Assembly (NCBI GenBank): GCA_018334165.1
Contig: JAGXTB010000039.1
Span: forward strand, 1-32,301
Source of the DNA: Sphingomonadales bacterium
GTDB lineage: Bacteria > Pseudomonadota > Alphaproteobacteria > Sphingomonadales > Sphingomonadaceae
DNA length: 32,301 nucleotides
Reading direction: 5' to 3'
Both the position numbers and the translations under genes were made by a program. The notes beneath the pieces are model-generated. The model had not been told where the DNA came from, ran no database searches, and worked only from the letters and a program-made list of their open reading frames with translations. How positions within the stretch are numbered: position 1 is the first letter of the stretch; each line of letters starts with the position of its first letter. Of this stretch, positions 9,640 through 32,301 are shown piece after piece.

Positions 9640-11115
9640 CTAGCCCGGCATTCTTATGCTGCGACCGGCACCGTCGGGTGGTGCCAGATGTTGCTGTTCG
9701 TCGGCAAGCCCGCGGATTGCTGCGGCGATTGATTCCGGTGCAGAAGCCGATCGTTCGGCCTTGGCATCGACATGGACCAGCATGTGTTCGCCAGTCGCGA
9801 TCAGCGTTCCTGTGTCGAGATTTGTCATCGCGTGGAACAAGTGCAGCCGCTTGCCATCGCTGCCCAGCACCCTGCTGCGAACTTCGACCTTCTGGCCAAG
9901 CCGGGCCTGGCCCAGGTGGCGGATGTGGGTTTCGACGGTGTAGAAACTGAAACCGCTGGCGACATAGTCCGGCCCTGCACCGATCCGGGCGAGCACCACA
10001 TCGGTCGCATCGCCGAACAGCTTGAGATAGCAGCTTTCGGTCAGGTGATCGTTGTAGTCGATCCATTCGGGCATGACCGGCGTGTGGCAGGTCAGCAAGT
10101 GTCCATCGCCGCAGTCACTGCCCAGCTTGACCGCTTCCTTACCCGCCAGGCTTTCGCGATAGGCCTTGGCCACCGCGCCTGCGGCGAAATCGCTGCGTTC
10201 CAGCGCATGGATCACATCGACCAGGCAATTGTCGCGCAGCGCCTCGTATTCGCGCAGGCCGATCCCGGCCGCCTGCTCGTCCGACTGGGCGGCGACCGTG
10301 TCGATCAGCTCGTCAGTCAGTTTGGGGCCGACCAGTTTGGTCCAGGGCCATTCCATCGACGGGCCGAACTGGTGGAGGAAGTGCCGCATCCCGGCTTCCC
10401 CGCCTGCCAGCCGGTAGGTCAGGAAGGTGCCCATGAACGACCAGCGCAGCCCCGCGCCAAAGCGGATCGCGTCGTCAATTTCGGCGGCGGTGGCGATCCC
10501 GTCGTTGATCAGCCACAGCGCCTCGCGCCAGACAGCCTCCAGCAAGCGGTCGGCGATGAAGCCGTCGATCTCGTGCCGGACATGCAGCACTTTCATGCCG
10601 ATGCGGGTGTAGAGCGCGCTGGCAATGTCGATGGTCTGCTGGCTGGTCTGGTCGCCGCCGCAGACTTCGACCAGCGGGAGCAGGTAAACCGGGTTGAAAG
10701 GGTGGCCCACTATCAGCCGGTCGGGCCGCTTCATGACGCTTTGCAGCTTGGTGGGGAGCAGGCCCGAAGTGGACGAACCGATCACCGCATGGGCGGGCAT
10801 GGCTGCATCGATTTCGGCCAGTACCCGCTGTTTGAGGTCTTCGCGCTCGGGCAGGCTTTCCTGGATGAAGTCGGCCTGGCTGACGGCTTCGGCCACGCTG
10901 GCCGCGAAGCTCAGCTTGCCCTCGGCAGGCAGCGCCGCGCCGTGGAGGCGGGTCTGTGCGCGGCGGGCATTGGCGAGGACTTCGAGGGTCTTGCGCTCCA
11001 CCTCCGGGTCGGGATCGAACAAGGCAACGTCGATCCCATTGAGCAGGAACCGCGCCGCCCAGGCCGCGCCGATCACGCCGCCGCCGACGATCCCGACTGC
11101 GCCCACCTCGGCCAT
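9640..11115 (-). CDS. cdhAB: L-carnitine dehydrogenase fused to a betainyl-CoA-type thioesterase
   Basis: A 491-aa bifunctional protein. Residues 1-330 are a 3-hydroxyacyl-CoA-dehydrogenase-like NAD enzyme: Rossmann motif GIVGGGVIG at 8-16, the GHPFNPVYLLPLVEV active-site region at 137-151, and FMGTFLTYRLAGGEAGMRHF, which is characteristic of carnitine 3-dehydrogenase. Residues about 340-470 form a hotdog thioesterase (EWIDYNDH, ATGEHMLVHVD) related to CdhB. The first half oxidises L-carnitine to 3-dehydrocarnitine; the second probably hydrolyses betainyl-CoA produced by the BKACE enzyme encoded immediately upstream (1-bp gap). In Pseudomonas these functions are separate cdhA and cdhB genes, while long carnitine dehydrogenases with this tail are known from other bacteria. 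The gene symbol is a composite used here for clarity. ATG 11115 lacks a strong Shine-Dalgarno and probably relies on coupling. Confidence 0.9.
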   Translation of the reverse strand: MAEVGAVGIVGGGVIGAAWAARFLLNGIDVALFDPDPEVERKTLEVLANARRAQTRLHGAALPAEGKLSFAASVAEAVSQADFIQESLPEREDLKQRVLAEIDAAMPAHAVIGSSTSGLLPTKLQSVMKRPDRLIVGHPFNPVYLLPLVEVCGGDQTSQQTIDIASALYTRIGMKVLHVRHEIDGFIADRLLEAVWREALWLINDGIATAAEIDDAIRFGAGLRWSFMGTFLTYRLAGGEAGMRHFLHQFGPSMEWPWTKLVGPKLTDELIDTVAAQSDEQAAGIGLREYEALRDNCLVDVIHALERSDFAAGAVAKAYRESLAGKEAVKLGSDCGDGHLLTCHTPVMPEWIDYNDHLTESCYLKLFGDATDVVLARIGAGPDYVASGFSFYTVETHIRHLGQARLGQKVEVRSRVLGSDGKRLHLFHAMTNLDTGTLIATGEHMLVHVDAKAERSASAPESIAAAIRGLADEQQHLAPPDGAGRSIRMPG

Positions 11116-11116
11116 G

Positions 11117-12007
11117 TCAGCGCTTTACCAGCTTGAGCTTGGCGCGCACTTCGGCCGGACCCAGGATCTTCGCGCCCATTCCGGTCAGCACCTGCACCGC
11201 GCGTTCGACCAACTGGCCGTTCGAGGCGAACTGGCCCTTGGCAAGGTAGAGGTTGTCCTCCAGCCCCACGCGGACGTTGCCGCCCGCCAGCGCTGCCATG
11301 GCCACGAAGGGCAGCTGGTTGCGGCTGATCGAGAACCCGCTGAATATCCCGCCCGGCGGCATTTGGTGGACCATCGCCATGGTGGTCAGCGGATCGTCGG
11401 GCGCGCCATAGGGGATACCCAGGCACAGCTGGATCATCACCGGATCGTCGAGCAGGCCGTCGCGGATCAGCTCCTTGACGAAGACCAGGTGTCCGGTGTC
11501 AAACACTTCCAGCTCGGGCCGCACGCCCAGCCGCTGCACTTCGGCGGCCATGGTCCGCAGCATGCCGGGGGTGTTGGTCATCACATAGTCGGCTTCGGCA
11601 AAATTCATCGTCCCGCAATCGAGCGTGCAGATTTCGGGCAGCAGTTGCTGGACGTGGGCCAGCCGCTCCAGCGGGCCAACCATGTCGGTCCCGGCGGGAT
11701 CGAGGGGTAGGGGTGCCTCTCCGGGACCGAACACGATGTCGCCGCCCATTCCGGCAGTGAAGTTGATGATCACGTCGGTGTCGCTGGCGCGGATCCGTTC
11801 CTTGACCTCGCGGTAAAGCGCCACGTCGCGGCAGCCTTTGCCGGTTTCGGGATCGCGCACGTGGATATGGGCAATCGCTGCTCCGGCCCGGGCCGCCTCG
11901 ATCGCCGCATTGGCGATCTGTTCGGGAGTGATCGGCAGATCCGGGTGCAGACCTTGGGTATTGCCCGATCCGGTCACCGCGCAGGTAATGAACGGCTCAA
12001 AATTCAT
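11117..12007 (-). CDS. cdhC: BKACE-family 3-dehydrocarnitine:acetyl-CoA cleavage enzyme, CdhC-like
   Basis: A 296-aa TIM-barrel beta-keto acid cleavage enzyme (former DUF849). The zinc ligands are visible as His47 and His49 in HIHVRD and Glu250 in [16 protein letters not shown] and ISRNQLPF are further family segments. BKACE enzymes condense a beta-keto acid with acetyl-CoA, giving acetoacetate and a new CoA ester. For dehydrocarnitine the product is betainyl-CoA. Tight linkage to carnitine dehydrogenase (1-bp gap) and to a CdhR-type regulator makes dehydrocarnitine the best substrate prediction. I start at ATG 12007 because it is followed by the conserved [13 protein letters not shown] and preceded by AGGGAGAGAG; a longer reading to 12091 would run through the operator region. 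Confidence 0.9.
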
Positions 12008-12064
12008 CGCTCTCTCCCTGACGGGGAGCTTATGGGCGAATCGGCCTGACACAAACGGCGTTTC

Positions 12065-12091
12065 GCGACAAAAGATTGCGAGTTGCGACAA
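12065..12091. promoter_or_regulatory. Direct repeat GCGACAA, candidate AraC/GlxA-type operator
   Basis: GCGACAA occurs at 12065-12071 and again at 12085-12091, exactly 20 bp apart (about two helical turns), in the 103-bp gap between the divergent cdhC and cdhR starts. Same-face direct repeats of about this spacing are the usual operator form for AraC/XylS-type activators. I infer a CdhR-like binding site controlling the carnitine operon and possibly the regulator itself. Confidence 0.5.
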
Positions 12092-12110
12092 GACTGCCTA
12101 GACTGGCTTG

Positions 12111-13040
12111 GTGGAAGAACTGGCCTTTCTGCTGCTCCCCGGATTTTCGGCGATGGCGTTTTTCTCAGCCGTAGAGCCGCTGCGGATCGCCAATCGGCTG
12201 GCCGGGCGAGAGCTTTATCGCTGGAGCGTCCATGTCGCCCGGGGCGATCATGCCGAAGCGTCCAACGGCCTGCAGATTCGTGGGGAAGGGCCAATCGACG
12301 AAGCGACCAAGACTCTGGTGGTCTGTGCTGGGTTCAATCCACTGGCGCTGGCCGATCCGCGGCTGCTGGGGCAATTGCGCCGGGTCTGGCGGCGCGGCGG
12401 CAGTGTGGGCGCGATCGATACCGGGGCTTTCTTGCTGGCCGAGGCCGGCATCCTGGGGCGCGATCCGATCACACTGCACTGGGAAGCCGCGAGTGAATTC
12501 GCGCTGCGCTATCCGCAGATCCCGGTCTCCACCGAACTGTTCGAGCGGCACGCCCGGCTGTTCACTTGCGCCGGCGGCACCGCGGCGATGGACTTGATGC
12601 TTGAAGCGATTGCCTTTGCCCACGGTGGGGTTCTGGCCAAGGCGGTCTCGGATCAGTTGATCCACGACCGGATCCGCTCACCGGGGGAAGCCCAGCGCGG
12701 GCTGGACCCGGCCTTTGTCCGCCATCCGCTGCTGGCGCAGGTGGTGCGGATCATGGAGAGCAACCTGGCCGAGCCGCTTTCGATCGAGCGTCTGGCCGAA
12801 GTAGCCGGGCATGACCGGCGGCTGATCGAACGCCAGTTCCAGCGCGTGCTGGGTCAGGCTCCGGGGCACTACTACCGCGAACTTCGGCTGCACCACGCGC
12901 TGACCCAGATCCGCAAGCAAGGCTTGGCGGTCCACCGCGCTGCGGCCTTGGCCGGGTTCTCGTCGCAGCCGGTGTTCAGCCGGGCTTGCCGAGCCCACTT
13001 CGGCAAAAGCCCGCGCGAAGTGCTGGCTTCAGGCGCGTGA
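12111..13040 (+). CDS. cdhR: GlxA-type AraC family transcriptional regulator, CdhR-like
   Basis: A protein of about 309 aa with an N-terminal DJ-1/PfpI-like amidotransferase domain (about 1-165; AFLLLPGFSAMAFFSAVEPLR, GAFLLAEAGIL, TCAGGTAAMDLML) and a C-terminal AraC helix-turn-helix pair (about 210-305; EPLSIERLAEVAGHDRRLIERQFQ and SQPVFSRACRAHFGKSPREVL). This is the architecture of CdhR and GbdR, the carnitine and glycine betaine activators of Pseudomonas. Its divergent position beside cdhC and the carnitine dehydrogenase fusion favours CdhR. An in-frame TAG lies just upstream at 12099-12101, leaving only TTG 12108 or GTG 12111 as starts; I prefer GTG. Its 3' end overlaps the convergent homocysteine methyltransferase gene by 12 bp. 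Confidence 0.85.
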   Translation: MEELAFLLLPGFSAMAFFSAVEPLRIANRLAGRELYRWSVHVARGDHAEASNGLQIRGEGPIDEATKTLVVCAGFNPLALADPRLLGQLRRVWRRGGSVGAIDTGAFLLAEAGILGRDPITLHWEAASEFALRYPQIPVSTELFERHARLFTCAGGTAAMDLMLEAIAFAHGGVLAKAVSDQLIHDRIRSPGEAQRGLDPAFVRHPLLAQVVRIMESNLAEPLSIERLAEVAGHDRRLIERQFQRVLGQAPGHYYRELRLHHALTQIRKQGLAVHRAAALAGFSSQPVFSRACRAHFGKSPREVLASGA

Positions 13041-14950: not shown

Positions 14951-16054
14951 ATGGTTGCAGTATTCCCCACCGCGCGGCTGCGGACTTCGCCGTTTTACGA
15001 TTCCGCGGTCGCCGAAGGCATGACGGCGGCGAGCATCTATAACCGGATGATCATGCCGACCTCCTACGGCGATCCCGAGGCCGAGTACTGGCGGATCATC
15101 GAAGGCGTTTCGCAGTGGGATGTCGGGGTTGAGCGGCAAGTCCAGCTCAAGGGCCGCGATGCCGGGCGTCTGGCCCAGATCCTGGCCGCGCGCGACTTGT
15201 CCAGATGCAAGCACGGGCAGGGCAAGTATGTGCCGATCTGCAATCACCGCGGCACGGTGTTCAACGACCCGATCCTGCTCAAGCACTCCGACGACCTCTA
15301 CTGGTTTTCGATTGCCGACAACGATTTGTGGCTGTGGGCCAATGCGATCGTCGCCGAGCGCGGGCTGGATGTTGAGGTTAGCGAGCCCGACGTTTCGCCG
15401 ATGGCACTCCAGGGCCCCAAGGCCGAGGATGTGGTCGCATCGGTGCTGGGCGACTGGGTGCGCGAGCTCAAGTACTTCTGGTTCCGCGACAGCGAGATTG
15501 AGGGCATTCCCATCACTGTCCAGCGGTCCGGGTGGTCAAAGCAGGGCGGCTTTGAGATCTACCTCAAGGACGGGACCAAAGGCACGCAGCTCTGGAACAT
15601 CTTCAAGGAGGCCGGACAGCCCTATGGGATTGGCCCTGGCGCGCCGGCAACCGCAGAACGCACCGAAAGCGGACTGGTCTCGGTCGGCGGTGATACGGAT
15701 GCCGATACCAATCCGTTCGAAGTGCGGATGGGGAGCTACGTCAGTCTGGATGTGCCCGACGATACGCTGGGCATTGCCGCGCTGCGGCGGATTGCCAGCG
15801 AGGGGCCGAAGCGGCACCAGCTGGGCCTGATCCTCGAAGGCTCAACCCCTGAGCCGCTTGGCTTCAGCTGGGAGGACATCCGGGTGAACGGCAAGACGGC
15901 GGGCCATATGACCAACTGCGTCTGGTCGCCGCGGATGAAGGCCAATATCGGTTATGCGCTGATCGGAGTTGAGCAGCAGGCCGGAGGCACGGTGGAGATC
16001 GACCGCAAATCCGGGCCTTGCGCGGCCCGGCTGGTCGAACTGCCGTTCCTTTGA
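14951..16054 (+). CDS. DmdA-like tetrahydrofolate-dependent demethylase (GcvT fold)
   Basis: A 367-aa aminomethyltransferase-fold protein. Segments YNRMIMPTSY, VSQWDVGVERQVQLKG, NDPILLK, WFSIADNDLWLWA, ALQGPKAEDV, RSGWSKQGGFEIY (about 192-204) and GIGPGAP agree, as far as I recall the family, more closely with DMSP demethylase DmdA than with GcvT. DmdA moves a methyl group from dimethylsulfoniopropionate to THF. Glycine betaine and DMSP are close structural analogues, and all surrounding genes deal with quaternary amines and THF one-carbon units. The real substrate could therefore be glycine betaine, dimethylglycine or DMSP. Start ATG 14951 has AAGGAG 6 nt upstream. A crotonase precedes it on the same strand. 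Family well supported; substrate unresolved and worth testing. Confidence 0.75.
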   Translation: MVAVFPTARLRTSPFYDSAVAEGMTAASIYNRMIMPTSYGDPEAEYWRIIEGVSQWDVGVERQVQLKGRDAGRLAQILAARDLSRCKHGQGKYVPICNHRGTVFNDPILLKHSDDLYWFSIADNDLWLWANAIVAERGLDVEVSEPDVSPMALQGPKAEDVVASVLGDWVRELKYFWFRDSEIEGIPITVQRSGWSKQGGFEIYLKDGTKGTQLWNIFKEAGQPYGIGPGAPATAERTESGLVSVGGDTDADTNPFEVRMGSYVSLDVPDDTLGIAALRRIASEGPKRHQLGLILEGSTPEPLGFSWEDIRVNGKTAGHMTNCVWSPRMKANIGYALIGVEQQAGGTVEIDRKSGPCAARLVELPFL

Positions 16055-16055
16055 T

Positions 16056-16235
16056 CTAGAGCCTGAAAGCACTGCTTCGAATTGCATAGCCCTTCCCCTG
16101 TGGGGAAGGGTTGGGATGGGGGTACGACGCCAGCGTGGGAACCCCCACCCCGCGTTCTTAGACAAGTGGCTAAGAATGGCCCTCCCCACAGGGGAGGGGA
16201 GAGCATCGTCTCAACCCAAATCCATCAGGCTCTAG
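16056..16235. repeat. 180-bp palindromic intergenic element with 11-bp terminal inverted repeats
   Basis: CTAGAGCCTGA at 16056-16066 is repeated inverted at 16225-16235. Inside are four nested hairpins: CCCTTCCCC/GGGGAAGGG (16090-16110), TGGGGGT/ACCCCCA (16117-16147), TTCTTAG/CTAAGAA (16155-16176) and CCCTCCCC/GGGGAGGG (16180-16198). The element fills the gap between the convergent DmdA-like gene (stop 16052-16054) and the MttB-like gene, whose TAG stop (16232-16234) lies in the right terminal repeat. CTAG flanks both sides and could be either part of the repeats or a target duplication. It encodes nothing. It looks like a MITE or REP-type insertion and may act as a two-way terminator. Confidence 0.75.
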
Positions 16236-17791
16236 TAGTTCGCGTCGGGCATCTGCCCTTTGCGGCGCTTGATATAGGCTTCCAGCTCTTCGCGCACGCC
16301 GGGATCGAGCGCGGGGTCTTCGTGTTCGGCCAGGGTCTTCTTCCAGGCCGCGTTGGCGCGGACCTGGATGTCCTTGGCGCCTTCGGCATCCCACTGTTCC
16401 CAGCTGGCATAGTCGGCCAAGGGCGAGCGGTAGAAGGCGTTCTCGAAATTGGCCTGGGTGTGGGCGCAGCCGAAGAAGTGCTTGCCCGGGCCAACCTCGC
16501 GGATCGCGTCCATCGCCTGGCCGTTTTCGGACAGGTCATAGCCGTTCAGCAGGACATGCATCATGCCCAGCTGATCGCAGTCCATCATGAACTTCTCGTA
16601 ACCGGTGACCAGCCCGCCTTCGAGCCAGCCGGCCGATTGCAGCACAAAGCTGGCCCCGCCCAGCGCGGTGGTTTGCAGGGTCTGCGCGCTTTCGTAAGCG
16701 GCCTGAGCGTCGGCGATCTTGGACGCGCAAAGGCTGCCGCCCGAACGGGAAGGCACCCCTAGCCGCCGCGCCAATGCCAGCAGCGCATTGATGATCAACG
16801 AGCATTCGGGCGTGCCATAGGTCGGCGCGCCGCTTTGCATCGAAAGCGTGGTGACGAAGCTGCCGAAGATCACTGGCGCGCCCGGCTTGACCAGTTGAAG
16901 AAAGGCCATCCCGGCCATCGCTTCGGCCAGAGTCACCGCGATCGCCCCCGCCAAGCCAGTCGGCGCCATCGCGCCCGCCATGATGAACGGGGTGACCAGC
17001 ACGCCCTGGTTGGCGCGGGCCAAAGCCTTGGCTGCGCCCAGCATGGTCGCGTCATAGGTCAGCGGCGAATTGCCGTTCATCACCCCCATCAGGCAAGTGG
17101 CGTTCTCTCCGGTCAGCGGATCGACAAAGCGGTCCCCGAACAGGATCTGCGCCATCTCGATGCAGTCATCGGTCCGGCTGGGCTGCGAAACCGCGCTGAA
17201 GAACGGCTTGTCGGTGTGGATCGCATTGCCCAGAAACATGTCGAAGTGGCGCTTGTTGACCGGCAGATCGACCGGCTCGCACATCGCGGTCGATGAGCTG
17301 TGCAGCCAGGGCGAGGCCTGGGTCAGCTTGGCGAAATTGTTGAAGTCCTCGATCGTGCCATAGCGGCGCCCTTTGTCGAGACAGCGCACGAACGGCGGCC
17401 CGGCGGTGGGGGCAAAGACCGTGCGCTTGCCGCCAATCGTGGTGCTGCGCGCCGGGTTGCGGGCCTGGTGGGTAAACTCGCGTGGCGCATGGTCCTGGAT
17501 CAGCTTGCGGCACATGCCCTTCGGCATTCGAACCAGTTCGCCGGTCACTTCGGCCCCGGCCGCGCGCCAGATTTCGAGCGCCTCGGGATCGTCGCGGAAT
17601 TCGCAGCCGATCTCGGAGAGAATCTGCTCGGCGTTGGCTTCGATCAGGCTCAATCCCTCTTCGCCGAGCAGTTCGACATAGGGGATTCTGCGGCTGATAT
17701 AGGGCGCCGAAGAGGTGTTGCCGGCAAGACGCGCCGCGCGCTTCGCATCGCGCCCGCCGCGCGCACGAGAAGGGGAGGACATGTCGTTCAT
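16232..17791 (-). CDS. MttB-family (trimethylamine methyltransferase-like) protein, non-pyrrolysine
   Basis: A 519-aa member of the MttB superfamily, at full family length. Landmarks are AEQILSEIGCEFRDDPEAL, TVFAPTAGPPFV, SSTAMCEPVDLP, LVKPGAPVIFGSFVTT and the segment RRLGVPSRSGGSLCASKIADAQAAYES. The frame is open throughout, with no internal TAG, so no pyrrolysine is needed. Non-pyrrolysine members such as MtgB demethylate glycine betaine, and others use carnitine, gamma-butyrobetaine or proline betaine, passing the methyl to a corrinoid protein. A betaine substrate fits this locus. It is the last gene of the run that begins with formate-THF ligase. ATG 17791 lacks a clear Shine-Dalgarno; ATG 17782 is an alternative start. 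Its stop codon lies inside the flanking palindromic element. Confidence 0.85.
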   Translation of the reverse strand: MNDMSSPSRARGGRDAKRAARLAGNTSSAPYISRRIPYVELLGEEGLSLIEANAEQILSEIGCEFRDDPEALEIWRAAGAEVTGELVRMPKGMCRKLIQDHAPREFTHQARNPARSTTIGGKRTVFAPTAGPPFVRCLDKGRRYGTIEDFNNFAKLTQASPWLHSSSTAMCEPVDLPVNKRHFDMFLGNAIHTDKPFFSAVSQPSRTDDCIEMAQILFGDRFVDPLTGENATCLMGVMNGNSPLTYDATMLGAAKALARANQGVLVTPFIMAGAMAPTGLAGAIAVTLAEAMAGMAFLQLVKPGAPVIFGSFVTTLSMQSGAPTYGTPECSLIINALLALARRLGVPSRSGGSLCASKIADAQAAYESAQTLQTTALGGASFVLQSAGWLEGGLVTGYEKFMMDCDQLGMMHVLLNGYDLSENGQAMDAIREVGPGKHFFGCAHTQANFENAFYRSPLADYASWEQWDAEGAKDIQVRANAAWKKTLAEHEDPALDPGVREELEAYIKRRKGQMPDANY

Positions 17792-20667: not shown

Positions 20668-22212
20668 TCAGGCCGCGAAAGCGATGTTGAACTTGTCGCG
20701 CACGGCCTGATCGATCACCGGATCGATCACGCAGCGGGCCTGGCGCAGGATCGAATCCTTGCGGGCACGCGCGCCGTCCAGCAACAGCGGCTTTTGCGCC
20801 TCGTTCCACTCCTTGGGGCTCATCCGGTTGCCGACTGCGGGATAGACATAGTCGGTCTGCATCAGGCTCATGGTCTGTTCGGAGCCCAGGTAGTGGCCGG
20901 GTCCGCCAAGGCAGACCTGCTTCATGACGTCGAGGTTCATCTTGTCCTCGGTCACTTCGATCCCGCGCACCGCGCGCTGGGCCTGGCCCAGGATGTCGTC
21001 GCCCAGGATCAGGCTTTCGAACGAGAAGCCCAAGAGCGAGGCCTGCATGCCGACCGATTCATAGACCATGTTGAGGCCCGCAAGGCCCGCCATCACGTTG
21101 ATGATGCCCTGTTCCCAGCCGCACTGCATGTCGGGCAGCTTGCTGTCGGTCATGCCGCCGGCGGCGCCGCCGGGCAGGCCATAGAAGCGGTGCATCTGCG
21201 CGCAGCCCGCGGTCAGCAGGCCCTGTTCCGCGCTGCCGCCCGACATCGATCCGGTCCGCAGGTCCGAAACGAACGGCCAGGTCCCAAAGATCGCCGGAGC
21301 GCCCGGCGTGATCGCGTTGACATAGACCACGCCCGCCAGACACTCGGCCACAGCCTGCGTGATCGCCAGCGCAATCGAGGCGGGGGCAGTGGCCCCGGCT
21401 TGCCCGGCCGAGAGCAGCAGCATCGGCATACCGGCGCGCACGCAGGCTTCCATCGTGATGCAGCTTTCCTCGGCGAATTTCATCGGCGGGACCACGAAGC
21501 AGTTCGAATTGGAAACGAACGGGCGCCTCCGCCATTCGGCCTCGCCGCCTGCGACCATGTGCAGCATTTCGAAGCCCGGCTCGACGCTGATCGGATCGGA
21601 GAACGAGGTGCCGACGTGCTTGGTGGTGCCGGACAGGCACGCGTAGAGCGTGTTCATGTCCATATCGACCAGGTCCTTCACATCGCGGCAGACCATCATC
21701 CGCTGGAAGAAGTGCACATTGTCGAGGTTGTTGACGATTTTCGCCGCCTCATAGAGGTCCTTGGCGGTGGAATCGCGGTAGTCGTTGGTTTCGAGATCGA
21801 CCACATGGACCGCGGCCCCGGCGGTGCCATAGTGGACCTTGTTGCCCGACAGGTGCAGGTCATGCTTGGGATCGCGGGCGAACAGCGTGATATCGCGCGC
21901 GGCGATTGCCAGCATGTCTTCCACCAGCGCGCGGGGGAAGCGGATCCGGCCGTCATCGCCCAGCACCGCACCTGCACCGGTCAGGATTTCCACGCCCGAT
22001 GCCGGAGCATTGGCGAGGCCGATCTGCTCCAGCGCATCGAGCGCGCCCTGGTGGATGCGCTGCACCCCGGCATCGGTCAGCGGCTTGTACTGGCCGCCTT
22101 CAAGCCCGGCACGGATAGGGCGCAGGTCTTCAGCGAGCGGAGCGGCGCGCAGGGCCTGGCGGGCGGCACGGCCGCCCGCGCGGCGATTGGGGGTTCCGGA
22201 TTCGTCGTTCAT
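20668..22212 (-). CDS. Second MttB-family methyltransferase, non-pyrrolysine
   Basis: A 514-aa MttB-superfamily protein only distantly similar to the one at 16232-17791. Shared landmarks are ITPGAPAIFGTWPFVSDLRTG and GGMTDSKLPDMQCGWEQ, which correspond to PGAPVIFG and SKIADAQAAYE in the other copy. Other family segments are LVEDMLAIAARDITLFARDP and CLGGPGHYLGSEQT. There is no in-frame TAG, hence no pyrrolysine. It lies 19 bp downstream of formate-THF ligase with a GGGGGA ribosome site about 7 nt before ATG 22212. This close pairing with a THF enzyme suggests that the methyl group ends on THF and then as formate. Substrate candidates are glycine betaine, carnitine and trimethylamine; the sequence alone cannot choose. 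No corrinoid protein gene is nearby. Confidence 0.85.
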   Translation of the reverse strand: MNDESGTPNRRAGGRAARQALRAAPLAEDLRPIRAGLEGGQYKPLTDAGVQRIHQGALDALEQIGLANAPASGVEILTGAGAVLGDDGRIRFPRALVEDMLAIAARDITLFARDPKHDLHLSGNKVHYGTAGAAVHVVDLETNDYRDSTAKDLYEAAKIVNNLDNVHFFQRMMVCRDVKDLVDMDMNTLYACLSGTTKHVGTSFSDPISVEPGFEMLHMVAGGEAEWRRRPFVSNSNCFVVPPMKFAEESCITMEACVRAGMPMLLLSAGQAGATAPASIALAITQAVAECLAGVVYVNAITPGAPAIFGTWPFVSDLRTGSMSGGSAEQGLLTAGCAQMHRFYGLPGGAAGGMTDSKLPDMQCGWEQGIINVMAGLAGLNMVYESVGMQASLLGFSFESLILGDDILGQAQRAVRGIEVTEDKMNLDVMKQVCLGGPGHYLGSEQTMSLMQTDYVYPAVGNRMSPKEWNEAQKPLLLDGARARKDSILRQARCVIDPVIDQAVRDKFNIAFAA

Positions 22213-22231
22213 TCAGTTCCCCCAATCACCT

Positions 22232-23932
22232 CTAAGCCAGCCCGACGATATTGCCGTCGTCGTCGAGGCCGATTTCGTTCGAAGCCGGGCGACGCGGCAG
22301 CCCCGGCATGGTCATGATATCGCCGCAGACCGCAACGATGAACCCGGCACCCGCAGACAGGCGCACTTCGCGCACTTCCAGCGTGTGCCCGGTCGGCGCA
22401 CCGCTCTTGGCCGGATCGGTCGAGAAGCTGTACTGCGTCTTGGCGATGCAGACCGGCAGTTTGCCGTAGCCCAGCTTTTCATAGTCCTTGAGCGTATTGG
22501 CGGTCGAACCGGTCAGCGTGATCCCATCGGCGCGGTAGATTTCGCGCGCGATGGTGGCGATCTTCTCGGCCAGCGGCATGTCGTCCGGGTAGAGCAGCTT
22601 GACCTCGGCCTGGCCTTCGTCGAGCTGGGCCTTGACCTGGTGCGCCAGTTCTTCCGCGCCCTTGCCGCCTTCGGCCCAGTGCTTGGCCAGCGCGACGCGC
22701 GCGCCGTACTTGCCGCAGACCGCCTTGAGCGCTTCGAGCTCTTCCTCGGTGTCCTTGATGAAGTGGTTGATCGCCACCACCGGGGTCAGGCCGAACTTCT
22801 GCAGGTTCTGGATGTGGCGTTCCAGATTGACCGCGCCGCGCATCAGCGCATCGACATCGGGATTGCCCAGATCGTCCTTCTTGACGCCGCCCTGCATCTT
22901 GAGCGCGCGCACCGTCGCAACCAGCACCACCGCATCGGGGCGCAGGCCGGAATGGCGGCACTTGATGTCGAGGAACTTCTCGGCCCCCAGGTCGGCACCG
23001 AAACCGGCCTCGGTCACCACCACATCGGCGAGCTTGAGCGCGGTCTGGGTTGCCATCACCGAGTTGCAGCCGTGGGCGATGTTGGCAAACGGGCCGCCGT
23101 GGATGAAGGCCGGGTTGTGCTCGATTGACTGGACCAGGTTGGGCTGGATCGCATCGCGCAGCAGCACGGCCATCGCGCCATCGGCCTTGAGGTCACGCGC
23201 GGTCACCGGGGTCTTGTCGTAAGTGCGGGCCACGATGATGTCGCCCAAACGGCGCTGGAGGTCCTTGATGTCGGTCGCCAGGCACAGGATTGCCATGATT
23301 TCCGAGGCGACAGTGATGTCGAACCCGGTTTCACGCGGCACGCCGTGGGTTACGCCGCCAAGGCCAACGTTGATGTTGCGCAGCGCGCGGTCGTTCATAT
23401 CGACCACCCGGCGCCAGACGACGCGGCGCGGATCGATGTTGAGCTCGTTGCCCCACTGCAGGTGGTTGTCGAGCAGCGCTGCCAGCAGCGAGTGCGCCGA
23501 CGTGATCGCGTGGAAATCGCCGTTGAAGTGGAGGTTGATGTCCTCCATCGGGATGACCTGCGCGCGCCCGCCACCGGCAGCGCCGCCCTTCATGCCGAAG
23601 CACGGACCCAGCGACGGCTCGCGCAGGCAGACGATCGACTTGATCCCGATCAGGTTGAGCCCGTCGTTGAGGCCGACCGAAGTGGTGGTCTTGCCTTCGC
23701 CGGCCGGGGTTGGGGTGATCGCGGTGACCAGCACCAGCTTGCCGTTGGGGCGATCCTGCAGCGAAGCGATGTATTCGAGGCTGACCTTGGCCTTGAAGTG
23801 GCCATAAGGGACCAGCGCTTCGGGAGCGATGCCCAGCCGCGCTTCGGCGAGCGGAAGAATCGGCGCCATCTTGGCAGCGCGGGCGATCTCGATGTCCGGG
23901 GCACCCGGCGGTGGCAGTTGATTCTCTTGCAT
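22232..23932 (-). CDS. fhs: Formate-tetrahydrofolate ligase
   Basis: A 566-aa cytoplasmic enzyme, close to the family's usual length of about 560. The ATP-binding segment [17 protein letters not shown] lies at about 72-88, followed by [53 protein letters not shown] and [12 protein letters not shown] near the C-terminus. It interconverts formate plus THF and 10-formyl-THF with ATP/ADP. In a demethylation locus it could run toward formate and ATP, clearing methyl-derived one-carbon units, or supply formyl-THF for biosynthesis. I start at ATG 23932 ([10 protein letters not shown]), next to an AAAAGGGG purine run; upstream in-frame starts at 24007 and 24052 add unconserved residues. The 174-bp gap to the LysR stop may carry a promoter but shows no riboswitch that I recognise. 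Confidence 0.93.
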
Positions 23933-24106
23933 CCCCTTTTCAAGAGCGCAAAGGCCCTTGCCTCTCAATGTCAGAGTTTTTGGCGACTGGTAAACGAAGC
24001 TCATGCCGCGCCCCAGCGGGGCGGATTTCTGCCAAGTCGGGCCAATGCACAAGCGGGGTGCGAAAAATCATCGCTACCATGACCAGCGGTAATAACCCCT
24101 GGTGGC

Positions 24107-25367: not shown

Positions 25368-26732
25368 CTAGTCGATCCGCGCGCCCTGGCGGCGCAGTTC
25401 GGTCTGGACTGCGGCGATATCGACCGAGCCGAAGTCCTGCCCGGTCTTGATCGCAATCGCCGCTGCCGTACCTGCGCCTTGCCCGGCCACCGCGCAACAC
25501 ATCATGTTGCGCACCGCCGCGTGGCTGACTTTGTCGCCGCCGATGGTCCGACCAGTGACGATCAGGTTCTTGACCTGCTTTGGCAGCATCGAGCGGAAAG
25601 GCACGTGGAAATAGCGCCCGGTCGTGGGGATGATGAGGATGCCATAACCGTCGATGAATTCGGGGAAGATGCCGATCGAATCCTCGAACCGGCCTTCGCC
25701 TTGGACATCGGCGGCGGTCATGTTGTACATGGCGTCGATCTTGCGGGTGTCGCGGATCCCCAGCGTCATCCCGAAATTGCGCAGCTTGGCGTTCTCGCAG
25801 CCGGGCTGGAATTGCTGGAGCGCCGCAATCGCCTGCATCGCCTGGCGGCGGCCCTCGATCTCGCCGTGGGTCAGATCGTCAGGATCGGTCCCGTCGAGCG
25901 TCATGTGAACCATGTTGAGGTAGGTCAGATCGCCCTGGTCGCTGACCGTACCCCAGGTCCCGGCAATAGTCTTGAGATTGTCGGGCAGCAGGCCCGCCTT
26001 GTGCGCCTGCTGGAAGGGCTTGCGCAGGAAGGGCGAGAACATTGCGTCCTCCTTGCCGCTGGTCGTTACCGACCATTCGCCGTCCTTGGCCCAGTCGGCA
26101 TAGGTCTGCGGATCAGCCTTCACCGCGTCGATGAACTTGGCCTTGTCGACCCCGCACATCGAGAACATGACCGAGACCGACATCATCTCGGCCTTGGGGT
26201 GCATGTGGGTGGGGGCTCCGGCGCGGTGGGCGACATCGGCATCGCCGCTGGCATCGACCACCAGCCTGGCCAGGATCGCCTCGCGCCCGGCCTTGCTTTC
26301 GACGATCACCCCGCGGATCGTATCTCCCTCCATGATCGGGGCGACGAACATGCGGTGCAGCATCGGGATCACCCCGGCTTCCTCAACCAGGCAATCGGCG
26401 ACATACTTGAACGCCTCGGCATCGAGTGCGTGACTGATCGATTGCGGTTCGGGGATTGCTGCGCCCATGGTCCTGGCGCGGTCCTCGAACTCGCGGCCAA
26501 TGCCTTCGCTGTCGATGGTCTTTGGGTGGCGGTACCAGGCAAAGCCCTCCACCCCGACCTGGGTGATGTTGCCGCCAAAGCAGCCATAGCGTTCGACGAG
26601 CGTCGTCTTGACTCCGGCGCGGGCCGAAGCGAGCGCGGCGGCAAGGCCCCCGGGCCCCGACCCAATCACCAGCACATCGGTTTCGTGAACCACGGGCACT
26701 TCGCGCGCGGGTTCGGCAATCGTGCGGGTCAT
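25368..26732 (-). CDS. FAD-dependent oxidoreductase of unknown substrate
   Basis: A 454-aa flavoprotein. A Rossmann FAD motif [21 protein letters not shown] is followed by [13 protein letters not shown], the pattern of the FAD_oxidored (PF12831-like) group, and by [16 protein letters not shown] and [19 protein letters not shown] near the C-terminal FAD contact. Its ATG (26732) overlaps the betA stop by ATGA, so it is part of the betIB-betA operon. It is not recognisable as dimethylglycine or sarcosine dehydrogenase. A role in downstream oxidation of a choline or betaine catabolite is inferred only from linkage. The frame is open further upstream to 26978 inside betA, but conservation begins at 26732. 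The operon ends at the hairpin downstream. Confidence 0.75.
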
Positions 26733-28396
26733 CGCTGCGAAGCCTCCCAGTTGGGCGCGACGTAATAGGGCAGGTTGGAAGGGGCGAGCAGGCCCTTGCC
26801 GAGCACGTGGTCCGCGCCCTTTTCGCCGATCATGATCGTCGGCGCGTTGAGGTTGCCGGTGGTGATTGAGGGCATCACCGAACTGTCGATCACCCGCAGG
26901 CCTTCGACCCCGATCACCTTGAGTTCGGGATCGACCACCGCCATCGGATCGTCCTTCGCGCCCATCTTGCAAGTGCACGAAGGGTGCAGCGCGCTTTCGA
27001 CGTGATCGGCGATGAAGGCGTCGATCTGCTCATCGGTCACGCAGTCCGCACCCGGCTGAATCTCGCGCCCGCGCCAGGGGGCGAAGGCATCCTGCTGGAA
27101 AATCTCGCGGGTCAGCCGAACGCAGGCGCGCATTTCTTCCCAGTCGTCGGGGTGGCTCATGTAGTTGAACAGGATTTTGGGATGCTCGCGCGGGTCCTTG
27201 CTGCGCAGCGTCACGCTGCCCCGGCTCTTCGAGCGCATCGGGCCGACGTGGGCCTGGAAACCGTGCTCGGTAGCGAGCGAAGAGCCATCATAATTGATCG
27301 CCATCGGGAAGAAATGGTACTGGATGTCGGGGTACTTGATCCCGGCCTTGCTGCGAATGAAGCCGCAGCTTTCAAACTGGTTTGAAGCCCCGATCCCGCG
27401 CCGCAGGAACAGCCATTCAGCTCCGACCAGTGCCTTGCCCAACAGGTTGGCCTGGCCGAACAGGGTGATCGGCTTGGTGCAGGCCATCTGGAAGTAGAAT
27501 TCCAGGTGATCCTGCAAGTTGGCGCCAACGCCGGGGCGGTCAGCTAGCACGTCGATCCCGACGCTTTTCAGTTCCTCAGCAGGGCCGATCCCTGACAGCT
27601 TGAGCAGTTGCACCGAATTGATCGAGCCGCCCGACAGCAGCACTTCGCGGGTGGCACGGACCTGATGGAGCTTGCCGCCTTTCTCAAACTCGATCCCGAC
27701 CGCGCGCTTGCCTTCGAACAGCACGCGATTGGCCAGCGCATGCTGGATCACGGTCAGGTTGGACCGCTTGCGCGCCGGATAGAGATAGGCCTTGGCCGCG
27801 CTGCAGCGCGTGCCCTTGCGCACGGTCATGTCCATCCGCCCGAAGCCTTCCTGGCGGAAACCGTTGTAGTCTTCGGTGAGGTCATACCCGGCCTGCGCTG
27901 CGGCATCGAGCCAGGCCTGGTTGAGCGGGTTCTTGAGCGTGCCGTAAGTGGTCGAAAGCGGGCCGTCTCCGCCGCGATACTCGTTGCCGCCCTCAGCGCG
28001 GGTCTCGGCGCGTTTGAAATAGGGCAGCACATCGCCGTAACCCCAGCCGGCCGCGCCCAGTTCGTCCTTCCAGTGTTCGAAATCGAGCGGGTTGCCGCGC
28101 ACGTAGACCAGGCCGTTGATCGAGCTCGATCCGCCCAGACCTAGCCCGCGCGGGCAGTGCAGGCGGCGGTTGCCCAGATGCGGTTCGGGTTCCGAGTAAT
28201 AGCCCCAGTTCCACCGCTTGGTGTTCATCGGATAGGCCAGCGCGGCGGGCATCTGGATGAAGATCGAACGATCCGAGCCGCCAGCCTCAAGCAGCAGCAC
28301 CTTGTTCTGCCCGTCTGCACTCAGCCGGTCAGCCAGCACGCAGCCTGCCGAACCTGCACCAACGACAATGAAATCGAACTCGTCAGTATGGGGCAT
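26729..28396 (-). CDS. betA: Choline dehydrogenase
   Basis: A 555-aa GMC oxidoreductase, the same length as E. coli BetA. It has the FAD motif [18 protein letters not shown] at 10-27, LLLEAGG, the [23 protein letters not shown] signature, and the catalytic His471 (HPSCTCKMG) and Asn517 ([11 protein letters not shown]). It oxidises choline to betaine aldehyde, and possibly on to betaine, passing electrons to the membrane chain. It overlaps the 3' end of the BetI-BetB fusion by 14 bp and the downstream FAD oxidoreductase by ATGA. The order repressor, aldehyde dehydrogenase, choline dehydrogenase matches betIBA of E. coli. The assignment is strong. Confidence 0.93.
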
Positions 28397-30404
28397 CGAT
28401 CGGCTCCATCGCCACGTAGACGCTCTTCAGCTGGGTGAAATACTCGATCGCCGCCTTGCCGTTTTCGCGGCCCAGGCCCGACTGCTTGTTGCCACCGAAC
28501 GGCAGTTCGATCGGCGTGATGTTGTAGGTGTTGATCCAGCAGGTCCCGGCCTCCAGCGCAGCGATCACGCGATGCGCGCGGGTCAGGTCGTTGGTGAAGA
28601 TCCCGGCGGCAAGGCCAAGGTCGGTGGCATTCGCGCGGGCGACCACTTCGGCCTCGTCATCGAAGTCGAGCACCGACATCACCGGACCAAAGATTTCCTC
28701 GCGGACAATCGCCATCTCGTCGGAGCAATGGGTGAAAATCGTCGGCTCGACGAAAGCGCCCTTGGCCAATGCGCCCGTTGTCACGCGCTTGCCGCCGGTC
28801 AGCAAGGTTGCGCCTTGTTGCTGGCCAAGCTGGATATAGCCTAGCACCTTTTCCATGTGCGCCTGCGAAATCAGCGCGCCCATCTGCGTGGCGGGATCGA
28901 GCGGATCGCCAACCACCATCGCCTCGGTCCGCGCCTTGAGCTTGGCGAGGAAGGCGTCGCGGACTTTGCGGTGCACGAACACCCGCGTGCCGTTGGTGCA
29001 GACTTCGCCCGCCGAATAGAAATTGGCGAGCAGTGCGCCTGATACGGCCTCGTCCAGATCGGCATCCTCGAACACGATCAGCGCCGATTTGCCGCCCAGT
29101 TCGAGCGTCACGACTTTCAATGTCGCGGAGGCATCGGCCATGACTTTCTTGCCGGTACCGACTTCGCCGGTCAGCGAAACCTTGGCGATGCCGGGGTGGC
29201 GCGAAAGGAGCCGGCCGGTGTCGGCCTTGCCCTGGACCACCTGGAACAGCCCATCGGGCAGGCCAGCGTCGCAGTAGGCCTTCTCCAGCTCGATCGCGGT
29301 CAAGGGAGTCAGTTCGGCCGGCTTGAACAGCATCGCATTGCCGCAGGCCAGCGCGGGCGCGCTTTTCCAGCAGGCGATCTGGATCGGATAGTTCCACGCC
29401 CCGATCCCCGCGACCACGCCCAGCGGTTCGCGGCGGGTATAGCCGAAAGCGCCGGGCCCCAGATCGAAATGTTCGCCCGAAAGCGTGCGGGCAAGGCCGG
29501 CGAAATACTCGATTGCGTCCGCGCCTGAGAGCACGTCGACAGCGATCGTCTCCTGAATCGGCTTGCCGGTGTCTTGCGCTTCGAGCCGGGCGATGGCTTC
29601 GTTGCGCTCGGTCAGCAGCTGAGCGGCGCGACCCAGGATCCGCCCGCGTTCGGCGCCGGGTGTTCGGGCCCACAGCTTCTGTGCTTCGGCAGCGCGGCCC
29701 ACGGCCTTGTCTACCTCGGCCTTGCCGTCGATCGTGATCGTGGCGAGCACTTCGCCGGTTGCGGGGTTGAGGGTGTCGAAAGTGCCGCTGGCTTCGACAG
29801 CGCCGCTGGCGGGCAGCCGCGCGGCGGCGATATCACGGTCGATTGCTTCAAAGATCCAGTCGACCGGGATTTGGGCGTCGGGCTTCCAGGCGCTGGCGAG
29901 CGCAGCGCGCAGCCAGAACCCGTCGATCAGCGCACCAATCGTCTCGGCGATCCGGTTCACCGCATCGGGCACGACGATGGCGCGCAATTCGTGCTTGAGG
30001 TTGGAGACCATCCGCTCCTGATGCACGCGCTGCAGCCGGGCGAGGGCGGGGGTGTAGAGCGCCAGCCCCCAGAACGAGAGCCAGGCGCGCGAGCTTTCCG
30101 AACTGAGCTCGCCCGGATCGAGGTGCGCGATCACGAAAGCCCGCAGCCGGTCCTCAGGCTCCTCGCCTTGCGCCAGCGCCTTCATTGGCAGGGTGGTGAC
30201 GCGTTCCACCAACTGGCGGAAAGTCGCCTCGATCAGCTTGTCGCGATCGCCGAAGTAGTGGACCACCAAGGCGGGCGAAACGTCAGCCCGGCGCGCGACT
30301 TCGGCCATGGTGAACTGCTCGATCCCGGTTTCCGCGAGCGCGGCCAGCGCCGCCTTGAGCAACTGGACCTTGCGGTCTTCCGGTTCGCGTCGGCGCATCG
30401 GCAT
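28383..30404 (-). CDS. betIB: BetI-BetB fusion: TetR-type choline repressor joined to betaine aldehyde dehydrogenase
   Basis: A single 673-aa open frame. Residues 1-195 are a TetR regulator closely resembling Bet[34 protein letters not shown] (about 31-60), then [20 protein letters not shown] and [13 protein letters not shown], as in BetI. From about residue 205 it is betaine aldehyde dehydrogenase: [31 protein letters not shown] with Asn338, Glu435 in LELGGKS, nucleophile Cys469 in [13 protein letters not shown], and [12 protein letters not shown]. The linker is about ten residues ([11 protein letters not shown]), and the first short strand of free BetB is absent. No in-frame ATG or GTG lies near the junction to start BetB alone. 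Start ATG 30404 ([11 protein letters not shown]) has AAAGGGA directly upstream. The product probably both represses in response to choline and oxidises betaine aldehyde with NAD(P). Confidence 0.9.
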
Positions 30405-30648: not shown

Positions 30649-30664
30649 TTGCACGCACGTTCAA
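30649..30664. promoter_or_regulatory. Candidate BetI operator, copy 2 (upstream of the receptor gene)
   Basis: TTGCAC-GCAC-GTTCAA matches copy 1 at 13 of 16 positions. It lies about 95 bp upstream of the TonB-dependent receptor start and abuts a TATATAT run. This suggests that the BetI-BetB fusion also represses the receptor, making it part of the choline regulon. Confidence 0.55.
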
Positions 30665-30758: not shown

Positions 30759-32301
30759 ATGGCCGTTCGTTCGCATTCATCGAGATTCACCGCTGTGCTT
30801 CGTGCGGGCGCTTCGCTTGCGATTGTCGCTGGCGGCTTGGCGGGTACCGCCGCTCAGGCGCAGACCGCGCCCGAAGCCGAGGAGGCTGAAACCACCGACA
30901 TCGTGGTTACCGCGCAGCGGCGCGAACAGAAGCTGCAGGATGTCGGCATCGCAGTGTCGGTGCTGGGCAAGGAAGAGCTGAAGAACCGCTCGATCAACAG
31001 CGCCACCGATGTCGTCTCGGCGATCCCGAACCTGAAATACAACGCCTATTCGTCCTCGCAGGTGGTGTTCAACATGCGCGGGGTTTCGCAGAACGATTAT
31101 GGCGACCAGCAGGAGCCGCCGGTCGCGGTCTATCAGGATGACAGCTACGCCAGCTCGATCACCACGGCCAGCTTCCCGGTGTTCGATCTGGCCCGGGTTG
31201 AGGCGCTGCGCGGGCCGCAAGGCACGCTGTTTGGCCGCAACGCCACCGGCGGCGCGGTCCAGTTCGTGTCCAGCCAGCCCACCTCGTCGCTCGATGGCTA
31301 TGTCAAAGCCACTTACGGCCGCTACAACCAGACCATCTTCGAAGGCGCGGTTTCCGGACCGCTGGGCGATACGCTGAGCGCGCGTATCTCGGGCGTCTAC
31401 AACCGCGATGACGGCTATATGGAGAATATCACCCCGGGCGAAAAGGATCGCGGGGCCAACAACCACTGGGCGGTGCGCGGGATCTTCCTGCTGGAGCCGT
31501 CGAACAGCTTCAAGGCCAAGCTGACCCTGCGCTATTCGCAGGCCGACAAGGAACGCCAGGCCGGGATCTACAATTATGCTCCGGCTTGCCCTAACGGGCA
31601 GTTCCAGGGTGAGTTCATGTCGCCGACCGATACTTGCGGCTATTGGGGTACCACTGGCACCGCCGGACCTGGCTACTTCAACCCCTCGATCACGGCCTCG
31701 CAAGGCGGCAGCCCGTGGAAAACGGCGGGCACAGGCGATGCATACGTTGATCGCAAAATGTTTGGCGCGACCTTGCGTTTCGATGCGCAGATCGGCTCAT
31801 TCGATGTCGTTTCGATCACCGACTACCAGCACCTTAAAAAGTTCTACATCGAAAGCGGCAACGGTCAGCCTGAAATCCCTTATGTCGAAAACGTGACGCC
31901 GCCGGCCACGGCACCGTGCCCGGCACCGGCCAGCAGCGTAACCTGCTATGCCTCGGGCACGGTGTTCTATCAGGATGCCAAGGTGAACCAGGTCACCCAG
32001 GAACTGCGTTTCTCGCGAAGCACGGACAACAATTTCCTGACCTTCGGCGCTTTCGGGATGATCATCGACGGTGACTACCGGGCCAAGTATGCGGTGCCGT
32101 TCATCGCCTATGACCCGCGCGTCAACTTTACCCAGCGGACTGAAAGCTTTGCTTTCTTCCTGCAGGACGAATTCAAGCTCACCGACAATCTCAAGCTGAT
32201 TGGCGGGATCCGCTACTGGCGCGATAGCAAGGAAGGCGATTACACCGCAGTTCACACCCTTGCGCCTTGGGCCCTGTCGTTGAACTTCGGTCCTGGCGGG
32301 G
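30759..32301 (+). CDS. TonB-dependent receptor of the choline block, 3' end beyond the window
   Basis: The first 514 codons are open to the window edge. The protein begins MAVRSHSSRF with a hydrophobic stretch and an AQAQT cleavage context near residue 35, so it is exported. DIVVTAQRREQKLQDVGIAVSV is the TonB-box and plug entry seen in many sphingomonad receptors; VEALRGPQGTLFGRNATGGAV is the plug-domain signature. Beta-barrel repeats follow, including LQDEFKLTDNLKLIGGIRYW at the end of the visible part. It would import a ligand across the outer membrane. The shared upstream region with betIB and the second palindrome suggest control by BetI, hence a choline-type ligand, but receptors of this class are diverse. 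ATG 30759 has GGGAGG about 5 nt upstream. Confidence 0.9.
   Translation, partial: MAVRSHSSRFTAVLRAGASLAIVAGGLAGTAAQAQTAPEAEEAETTDIVVTAQRREQKLQDVGIAVSVLGKEELKNRSINSATDVVSAIPNLKYNAYSSSQVVFNMRGVSQNDYGDQQEPPVAVYQDDSYASSITTASFPVFDLARVEALRGPQGTLFGRNATGGAVQFVSSQPTSSLDGYVKATYGRYNQTIFEGAVSGPLGDTLSARISGVYNRDDGYMENITPGEKDRGANNHWAVRGIFLLEPSNSFKAKLTLRYSQADKERQAGIYNYAPACPNGQFQGEFMSPTDTCGYWGTTGTAGPGYFNPSITASQGGSPWKTAGTGDAYVDRKMFGATLRFDAQIGSFDVVSITDYQHLKKFYIESGNGQPEIPYVENVTPPATAPCPAPASSVTCYASGTVFYQDAKVNQVTQELRFSRSTDNNFLTFGAFGMIIDGDYRAKYAVPFIAYDPRVNFTQRTESFAFFLQDEFKLTDNLKLIGGIRYWRDSKEGDYTAVHTLAPWALSLNFGPGG

Follow-up and report, generated by a model that had tools for sequence, protein, structure and literature searches.

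The betI-betB locus

The window, a stretch of 32,301 nucleotides of contig JAGXTB010000039.1 from a Sphingomonadales bacterium (assembly GCA_018334165.1), carries a gene that joins the TetR-type repressor BetI to betaine aldehyde dehydrogenase, BetB. The gene is a single open frame of 673 amino acids with zero stops (Table 1) and is present in one copy in its genome. BetI is normally a stand-alone protein of ~200 residues, and here it forms part of the longer chain. A preliminary description of this DNA had pointed to one uninterrupted frame for repressor and enzyme, and the sequence and many relatives bear this out. The domain search that it proposed for the product, run with Pfam, returned TetR_N, the BetI-type C-terminal domain TetR_C_6 and Aldedh (residues 206-662). 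The true start may be the third codon (671 amino acids), because near relatives share that methionine.

Table 1. Features of the betI-betB fusion gene and its immediate surroundings in the window
Feature	Coordinates	Strand	Basis
betI-betB fusion gene	28383..30404	-	open frame, Pfam, NCBIfam; start possibly Met3 at 30398
TetR_N helix-turn-helix, residues 15-60	30225..30362	-	Pfam PF00440 1.3e-11
BetI-type ligand/dimer domain TetR_C_6, residues 83-178	29871..30158	-	Pfam PF13977 2.8e-22
Interdomain linker, ~residues 187-205, without in-frame start codon	29790..29846	-	
Betaine aldehyde dehydrogenase half, residues 206-673, without the usual first ~19 residues	28383..29789	-	
Putative BetI operator TTGAAC-ATAC-GTTCAA	30422..30437	.	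exact match; 17 bases upstream of ATG at 30404
Second operator-like dyad, one mismatch, on the side of the divergent receptor gene	30649..30664	.	
betA, choline dehydrogenase, overlapping the end of the fusion gene by 14 bases	26729..28396	-	TIGR01810 836.8 bits vs cut-off 732.1
Divergent TonB-dependent receptor gene, running off the window	30759..32301	+	Pfam Plug, TonB_dep_Rec_b-barrel

The BetI half scores above the equivalog cut-off of PRK00767 (164.1 bits against 118). The BetB half exceeds that of PRK13252 (762.4 against 593) and falls short of TIGR01804 (652.8 against 668.6). In an NCBIfam scan, no model of a fusion was present among the best 25 of 55 families. The predicted structure (predicted local distance difference test, pLDDT, 77.7) has an all-helical BetI half, with the helix-turn-helix (HTH) helices at residues 33-40 and 44-51, and a dehydrogenase fold. 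As the list from the structure search was filled by aldehyde dehydrogenases, the fold comparison covers the BetB half. The closest solved BetB proteins share 56-59% identity with it, and the model matches BetB 6wsa with Z 46.2 and a root mean square deviation of 1.9 over 423 aligned residues.

The betaine aldehyde dehydrogenase profile match begins at profile position 20 of 488 and the match to the best solved BetB at residue 19 of its chain; thus the usual first residues of BetB are replaced by the linker. The preliminary description of a BetB enzyme with all catalytic residues is correct as to N338, E435 and C469, which are present, and needs amendment in that the first ~19 residues of BetB are missing.

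Distribution of the fusion

Both halves are found in one frame in 92 of the 110 loci examined. These are 87 distinct places, as five of the 92 are the same contig stretch reached twice, and a few end at contig edges. The 110 loci comprise the best 80 of 127 relatives in a species-genome collection and 30 loci from a scan of the genus. All of the 80 and 12 of the 30 are fused; the 80 were found by fused-alignment patterns and ranked against the fused query, and 80 of 80 is thus not a frequency. In the genus, 12 of 195 genomes, the window's included, have a fused match (in G197 and G209 the contig ends within the BetB half of the match). In evenly drawn samples that each count the window's genome, intact fusions were present in 3 of 385 genomes at class level and in 5 of 398 at phylum level. 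The genus, class and phylum frequencies are lower bounds, with at most 8 to 11 candidates scored per genome, and 8 or 9 in the class and phylum samples.

By title, isolates and strains with the fusion belong to Novosphingobium, Ancylobacter, Azorhizobium, Aureimonas, Kaistia, Bosea, Methylobrevis, Faunimonas, Rhodomicrobium, Acidisoma and Stakelama; metagenome-assembled genomes (MAGs) with the fusion are from Caulobacterales and Gammaproteobacteria, including Steroidobacteraceae. The fusion is not confined to a single genome; it represents a widespread and apparently old family. One deposited Komagataeibacter plasmid gene holds all three domains and is annotated just as betB. Where the gene is annotated in this way, the choline regulator of the bacterium can go unnoticed.

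The genome that contains the window is assembled in 247 contigs, and a fused frame could arise as a sequencing or assembly artefact. The chance of this is practically negligible: independent isolate and MAG assemblies of many genera carry the fusion with differing linkers, and an assembly error is ruled out by relatives that have it in one frame. Nine other long frames with BetI-like matches were also fetched, and none has detectable similarity to BetB; together with the loci previously examined, they cover the frames of at least 600 residues that were listed. In a separate observation, locus L214 (G416:C12) contains 644 residues in one frame, with a TetR-like domain close to the beginning and no BetB similarity; this may be a mere open frame.

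The linker

Four same-genus loci, with 86-98% identity in BetI and 92-96% in BetB, keep the frame open, and the fusion is for this reason no chance open frame; one of the four ends at a contig edge inside BetB. Their linkers are 48-53 residues between fixed points, and across the fused loci this length varies from 45 to 74. The ratio of nonsynonymous to synonymous differences (pN/pS) in residues 187-209 is 0.16-0.68 against the four near relatives L046-L049, and 0.89 and 0.98 against the more distant L050 and L022. The richness of the linker in insertions and deletions argues for a loose tether between the halves.

Residues 172-213 of the window's gene contain no in-frame ATG, GTG or TTG, in agreement with the earlier claim that a credible internal start is absent, and seven other loci likewise have none of these codons in the linker (8 of 92 in all). 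Loci named Ancylobacter differ in this respect, as 12 of 14 keep an ATG at the apparent old betB start, ahead of the usual N-terminal strand of BetB. A GGA is found within the 18 bases before 11 of these 12 ATGs, and AGGA, GGAG and GAGG occur in that interval in 0 of 12. The Ancylobacter codons are what would be expected if two proteins were made from one gene, with internal initiation or proteolysis yielding free BetB (and BetI) beside the fusion. This is improbable in view of the eight loci without any linker start and the lack of the longer purine motifs. Moreover, a free BetB from the window's gene would miss its first strand; yet same-genus stand-alone BetB proteins of that shape exist.

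Putative operator

An exact TTGAA-N6-TTCAA dyad is present in 44 of 93 regions upstream of fused genes and in 0 of 276 coding stretches. The wider form TTGA-N8-TCAA is found in 74 of the 93 (shuffle mean 0.09) and in 50 of 60 non-redundant fused regions, with a chance mean of 0.23 and a maximum of 2 in 300 resamples. Within the window alone, there are four matches at two or fewer mismatches where 1.57 are expected; this single count is weak, and the support for a putative operator comes from its recurrence in other loci. The second site in the window has counterparts in L049, L050 and L022. A scan of the window's genome gave 20 places at one or no mismatch, compared with 5 for the reversed pattern; apart from the two sites next to the fusion, the surroundings of one place were read, and it is located within a gene for an M13 peptidase.

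Fused and unfused loci differ in the form of the palindrome. A TTGA-N4-TCAA core is found in 29 of 47 unfused BetI regions, where the N8 form (30 of 47) mostly overlaps it, and in just 4 of 60 fused regions, most of which have the N8 form and no N4 core. In the recognition helix, the fused form typically has P44, V47 and A48; the window has P44 and V47 but V48. It thus seems that in the fused repressors a composite site gave way to a single wider dyad, with accompanying differences in the recognition helix, in a comparison where lineage and fusion are confounded. A free BetI, BetI1 of Ruegeria, is reported to bind ATTGACG-CGTCAAT with choline as effector (PMC12442346).

In some gammaproteobacterial loci (L092, L113 and L122) the operator dyad runs into the candidate start codon (TCAATG). 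With such an overlap the repressor would sit on the start site, unless the true start is elsewhere.

Origin of the fusion and its split relatives

Quick trees, with support from the Shimodaira-Hasegawa-like approximate likelihood ratio test alone, were made after near-copies had been dropped (for BetB, 93 rows kept and 65 dropped) and short rows left out. In the BetB tree of 93 rows, 63 fused rows and five unfused same-genus rows are on one side of a branch with support of 98. The BetI tree of 103 rows has 63 fused rows, and that of genome G519 described below, on one side of a branch with support of 97. The fusion seems to go back to one old event. An independent fusion or a swap of BetI was considered for G909, whose BetB is 88% and BetI 45% identical to the window's, and was rejected, since the BetI tree places G909 beside the window's clade (support 99). 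Fast evolution of BetI is the simpler reading of this case, though both branches are long.

Split betI-betB pairs are located near but outside the fused clade. In G412 (L131) 21 bases separate the genes, and in G281 (L130) they are adjacent or overlapping; both have a divergent gene of the choline ATP-binding cassette (ABC) binding protein type, that of G412 by TIGR03414. These pairs are likely to be close to the state before fusion.

Eighteen unfused same-genus BetB genes (L028-L045) start just before the truncated core and lack the N-terminal strand that BetB usually has, and no BetI was detected within 1.5 kb upstream (0.9 kb for L035). They appear to have lost BetI from a fused gene. As the approximately unbiased test does not reject the fused BetB sequences as a clade apart from the unfused same-genus ones (p 0.104), the reading of loss relies mainly on the missing N-terminal strand.

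Constraint on both halves

Compared with L046-L049, pN/pS is 0-0.10 in the HTH, 0.03-0.16 in the BetI C-terminal domain and 0.07-0.12 in BetB. The HTH values rise to 0.23 and 0.28 against L050 and L022, and in four other pairs they are 0.03-0.04 (two pairs), 0.16 and 0.27. Residues N338, K361, E435 and C469, which we take to be the catalytic Asn, Lys, Glu and Cys, are invariant in all 23 aligned fusions. W108, W112, D161, G162 and W164 are kept in fused and unfused BetI alike, and some of these may bind choline. Judged by these patterns, both halves look functional.

The BetI half might alternatively be a dead passenger. The window's lineage sits on a long branch in the BetI tree, and the 18 same-genus BetB genes indicate that the enzyme can do without BetI. 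This alternative is nevertheless very unlikely, given that the HTH is under constraint, that the dyad is conserved and that no other BetI above 111 bits was found in the 20 genomes searched (17 with the fusion, G519, and G412 and G281 with split genes). Further dehydrogenases that pass E 1e-110 in these 20 genomes are just 42-45% identical, and the 17 fused genomes have none above 44%. G209, whose contig ends inside the BetB half, gave no dehydrogenase match.

A relative with a degenerate enzyme half

The gene at L182:1743-3239 on the minus strand (the same as L127:556-2052) of G519 encodes an intact BetI followed by a shrunken dehydrogenase remnant that has lost the catalytic Cys. The gene is preceded by two operator-like sites and followed by betA. 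In the predicted structure the BetI half has high confidence, and roughly the last 115 residues do not. No BetB-grade enzyme was found elsewhere in this genome, where the best match has 42-45% identity. It is possible that the G519 protein is an enzyme turned regulator.

Possible mode of action

The single frame and its conservation, the recurrent dyad, the constraint on both halves and the catalytic residues are what the sequences supply. By sequence the gene also has the make-up of an autogenous repressor-enzyme, or trigger enzyme: DNA-binding and catalytic domains, with an operator-like site upstream. Betaine aldehyde dehydrogenase carries out the second step in the conversion of choline to glycine betaine. 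It is moderately probable, and the likeliest reading, that the protein acts as an autogenous repressor that responds to choline and is tethered to its enzyme, with release by choline preceding catalysis. The BetI half would dimerize and bind TTGAAC-N4-GTTCAA upstream of its own betIB-betA operon, and would probably also control the divergent uptake gene. Incoming choline would bind the BetI ligand domain and free the DNA, whereupon the same polypeptide would act in the cytosol as betaine aldehyde dehydrogenase. A flexible linker would join the halves and leave them to work mostly independently. The fusion would set repressor and enzyme at 1:1, and production of the enzyme would itself restore repression once choline is consumed.

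Several points weigh against a tethered autogenous repressor. DNA binding, choline as the inducer, dehydrogenase activity, assembly into dimers or tetramers and the independence of the halves are all inferred. The window's BetI half, with 172.5 bits, is below the TIGR03384 equivalog cut-off of 201.3; of the other fused BetI halves scanned with this model, those of L056 (206.8) and G519 (L127, 218.9) pass and those of L051 (199.2) and L021 (177.2) fail. This low score, taken with the long BetI branch, may mean that the inducer of the window's protein has shifted. The exact dyad is missing in 10 of the 60 non-redundant loci (19 of 93 in all); among the 93, those without it include L046 and L049, which belong to the four nearest relatives of the window. 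Nor is the HTH the most constrained part in every pair: between L023 and L024 its pN/pS (0.27) exceeds that of BetB (0.14). Furthermore, cells usually require many more copies of an enzyme than of a repressor, and over-repression would have to be avoided.

A coupled switch like that of PutA, with expression tied to intermediate flux as the preliminary description proposed, is a less probable but tenable alternative. Binding of betaine aldehyde or NAD+ to the dehydrogenase half would alter DNA binding by BetI, and flux would be read directly. The principle has been shown for PutA (PMC5293562), the single chain has been retained over a long time, and G519 keeps its Cys-less remnant attached to an intact BetI, as if for sensing or assembly. 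Variation in the length of the linker and its drift in sequence speak against such coupling, as does the ability of free BetI to sense choline already; the G519 remnant may simply be decaying.

It might also be envisaged, as a speculative and doubtful extension, that the protein is a two-input switch. BetI would read choline, while the dehydrogenase core, as a dimer or tetramer with several repressor heads, would respond to betaine aldehyde or NAD+ and might link both operators of the divergent promoter region; the enzyme might be purely regulatory in some lineages (G519). Looping by a rigid tetramer might predict helically phased paired operators. No helical phasing was found among the 10 of 60 loci with a pair of exact sites separated by more than 30 bases (Rayleigh p about 0.92).

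Neighbouring genes

Among 76 fused loci with enough flank, 72 have betA within 200 bases after the fusion; it is further off in two and not found within the available stretch in the other two. A divergent ChoX-like gene is present at 50 of 77 fused loci, and the ChoX reference passes the cut-off for the choline ABC binding protein (455.4 against 379.05). A TonB receptor like the window's is found at four of the 77, all in the window's clade.

The window is a quaternary-amine island with genes for choline sulfatase, two MTTB-family proteins, formate-tetrahydrofolate ligase, carnitine 3-dehydrogenase, a beta-keto acid cleavage enzyme and others. At 9640-13040, carnitine 3-dehydrogenase is fused to a thioesterase-like domain (PRK07531, 668.7 bits against 592) and adjoins the beta-keto acid cleavage enzyme. 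The AraC-type regulator there is nearest to GbdR (240.5 against 480) and is not called GbdR for that reason. By these matches the segment is a carnitine cluster beside the choline genes. The MTTB-family proteins are located at 16232-17791 and 20668-24052, one of them beside formate-tetrahydrofolate ligase, and a GcvT-like protein at 14951-16054 is nearest to dimethylsulfoniopropionate demethylase (344.6 against 410). This set of genes suggests betaine demethylation tied to one-carbon metabolism. A flavin adenine dinucleotide (FAD)-dependent oxidoreductase is encoded at 25368-26978 on the minus strand; its longest frame overlaps betA by 250 bases and its domain begins at residue 101, and the true start is probably internal.

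Relation to known systems

The fusion shares with BetI of betIBA operons (PRK00767, TIGR03384) the TetR_N and TetR_C_6 domains, the ligand-domain residues, the upstream TTGA/TCAA palindromes and the adjoining betB and betA; it differs in that BetI continues C-terminally into BetB. With BetB (PDB 6wsa, 2wme) it has the catalytic fold and residues in common, whereas a linker stands in place of the first ~19 residues and a DNA-binding domain is added at the N-terminus.

Few transcription factors fused to a working enzyme of their own pathway are known to us, and PutA is the textbook case. In trifunctional PutA (type C), a DNA-binding domain likewise forms the N-terminus of a catabolic enzyme with an aldehyde dehydrogenase component, and the protein is an autogenous repressor of its own operon and transporter (PMC5293562). 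An enzyme with its own repressor domain is thus already known as a kind (PMC5293562). PutA differs in its ribbon-helix-helix rather than TetR domain, in its PRODH and P5CDH activities and in membrane switching via flavin; the fusion has no flavin domain. Pfam did not detect ribbon-helix-helix or proline dehydrogenase domains in it, the only matches being TetR_N, TetR_C_6 and Aldedh. In MocR/GabR regulators, a GntR winged helix is fused to an aminotransferase fold that serves as sensor. These also join a DNA-binding domain to an enzyme fold; BetI-BetB differs in keeping the catalytic residues, except in G519.

The preliminary description knew of no earlier account, and no description of a fusion of TetR or BetI with aldehyde dehydrogenase was found in the open-access literature searched. 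Passages on bet genes in one paper deal with fused methyltransferases and not with BetI-BetB (PMC7824335).

The fusion adds a widespread, apparently old TetR-type example to the regulator-enzyme fusions. Its split (G281, G412), repressor-less (same-genus BetB) and catalysis-less (G519) relatives make its origin and use testable step by step, and the protein allows one to test how a metabolic enzyme and the switch of its own gene work in one molecule.

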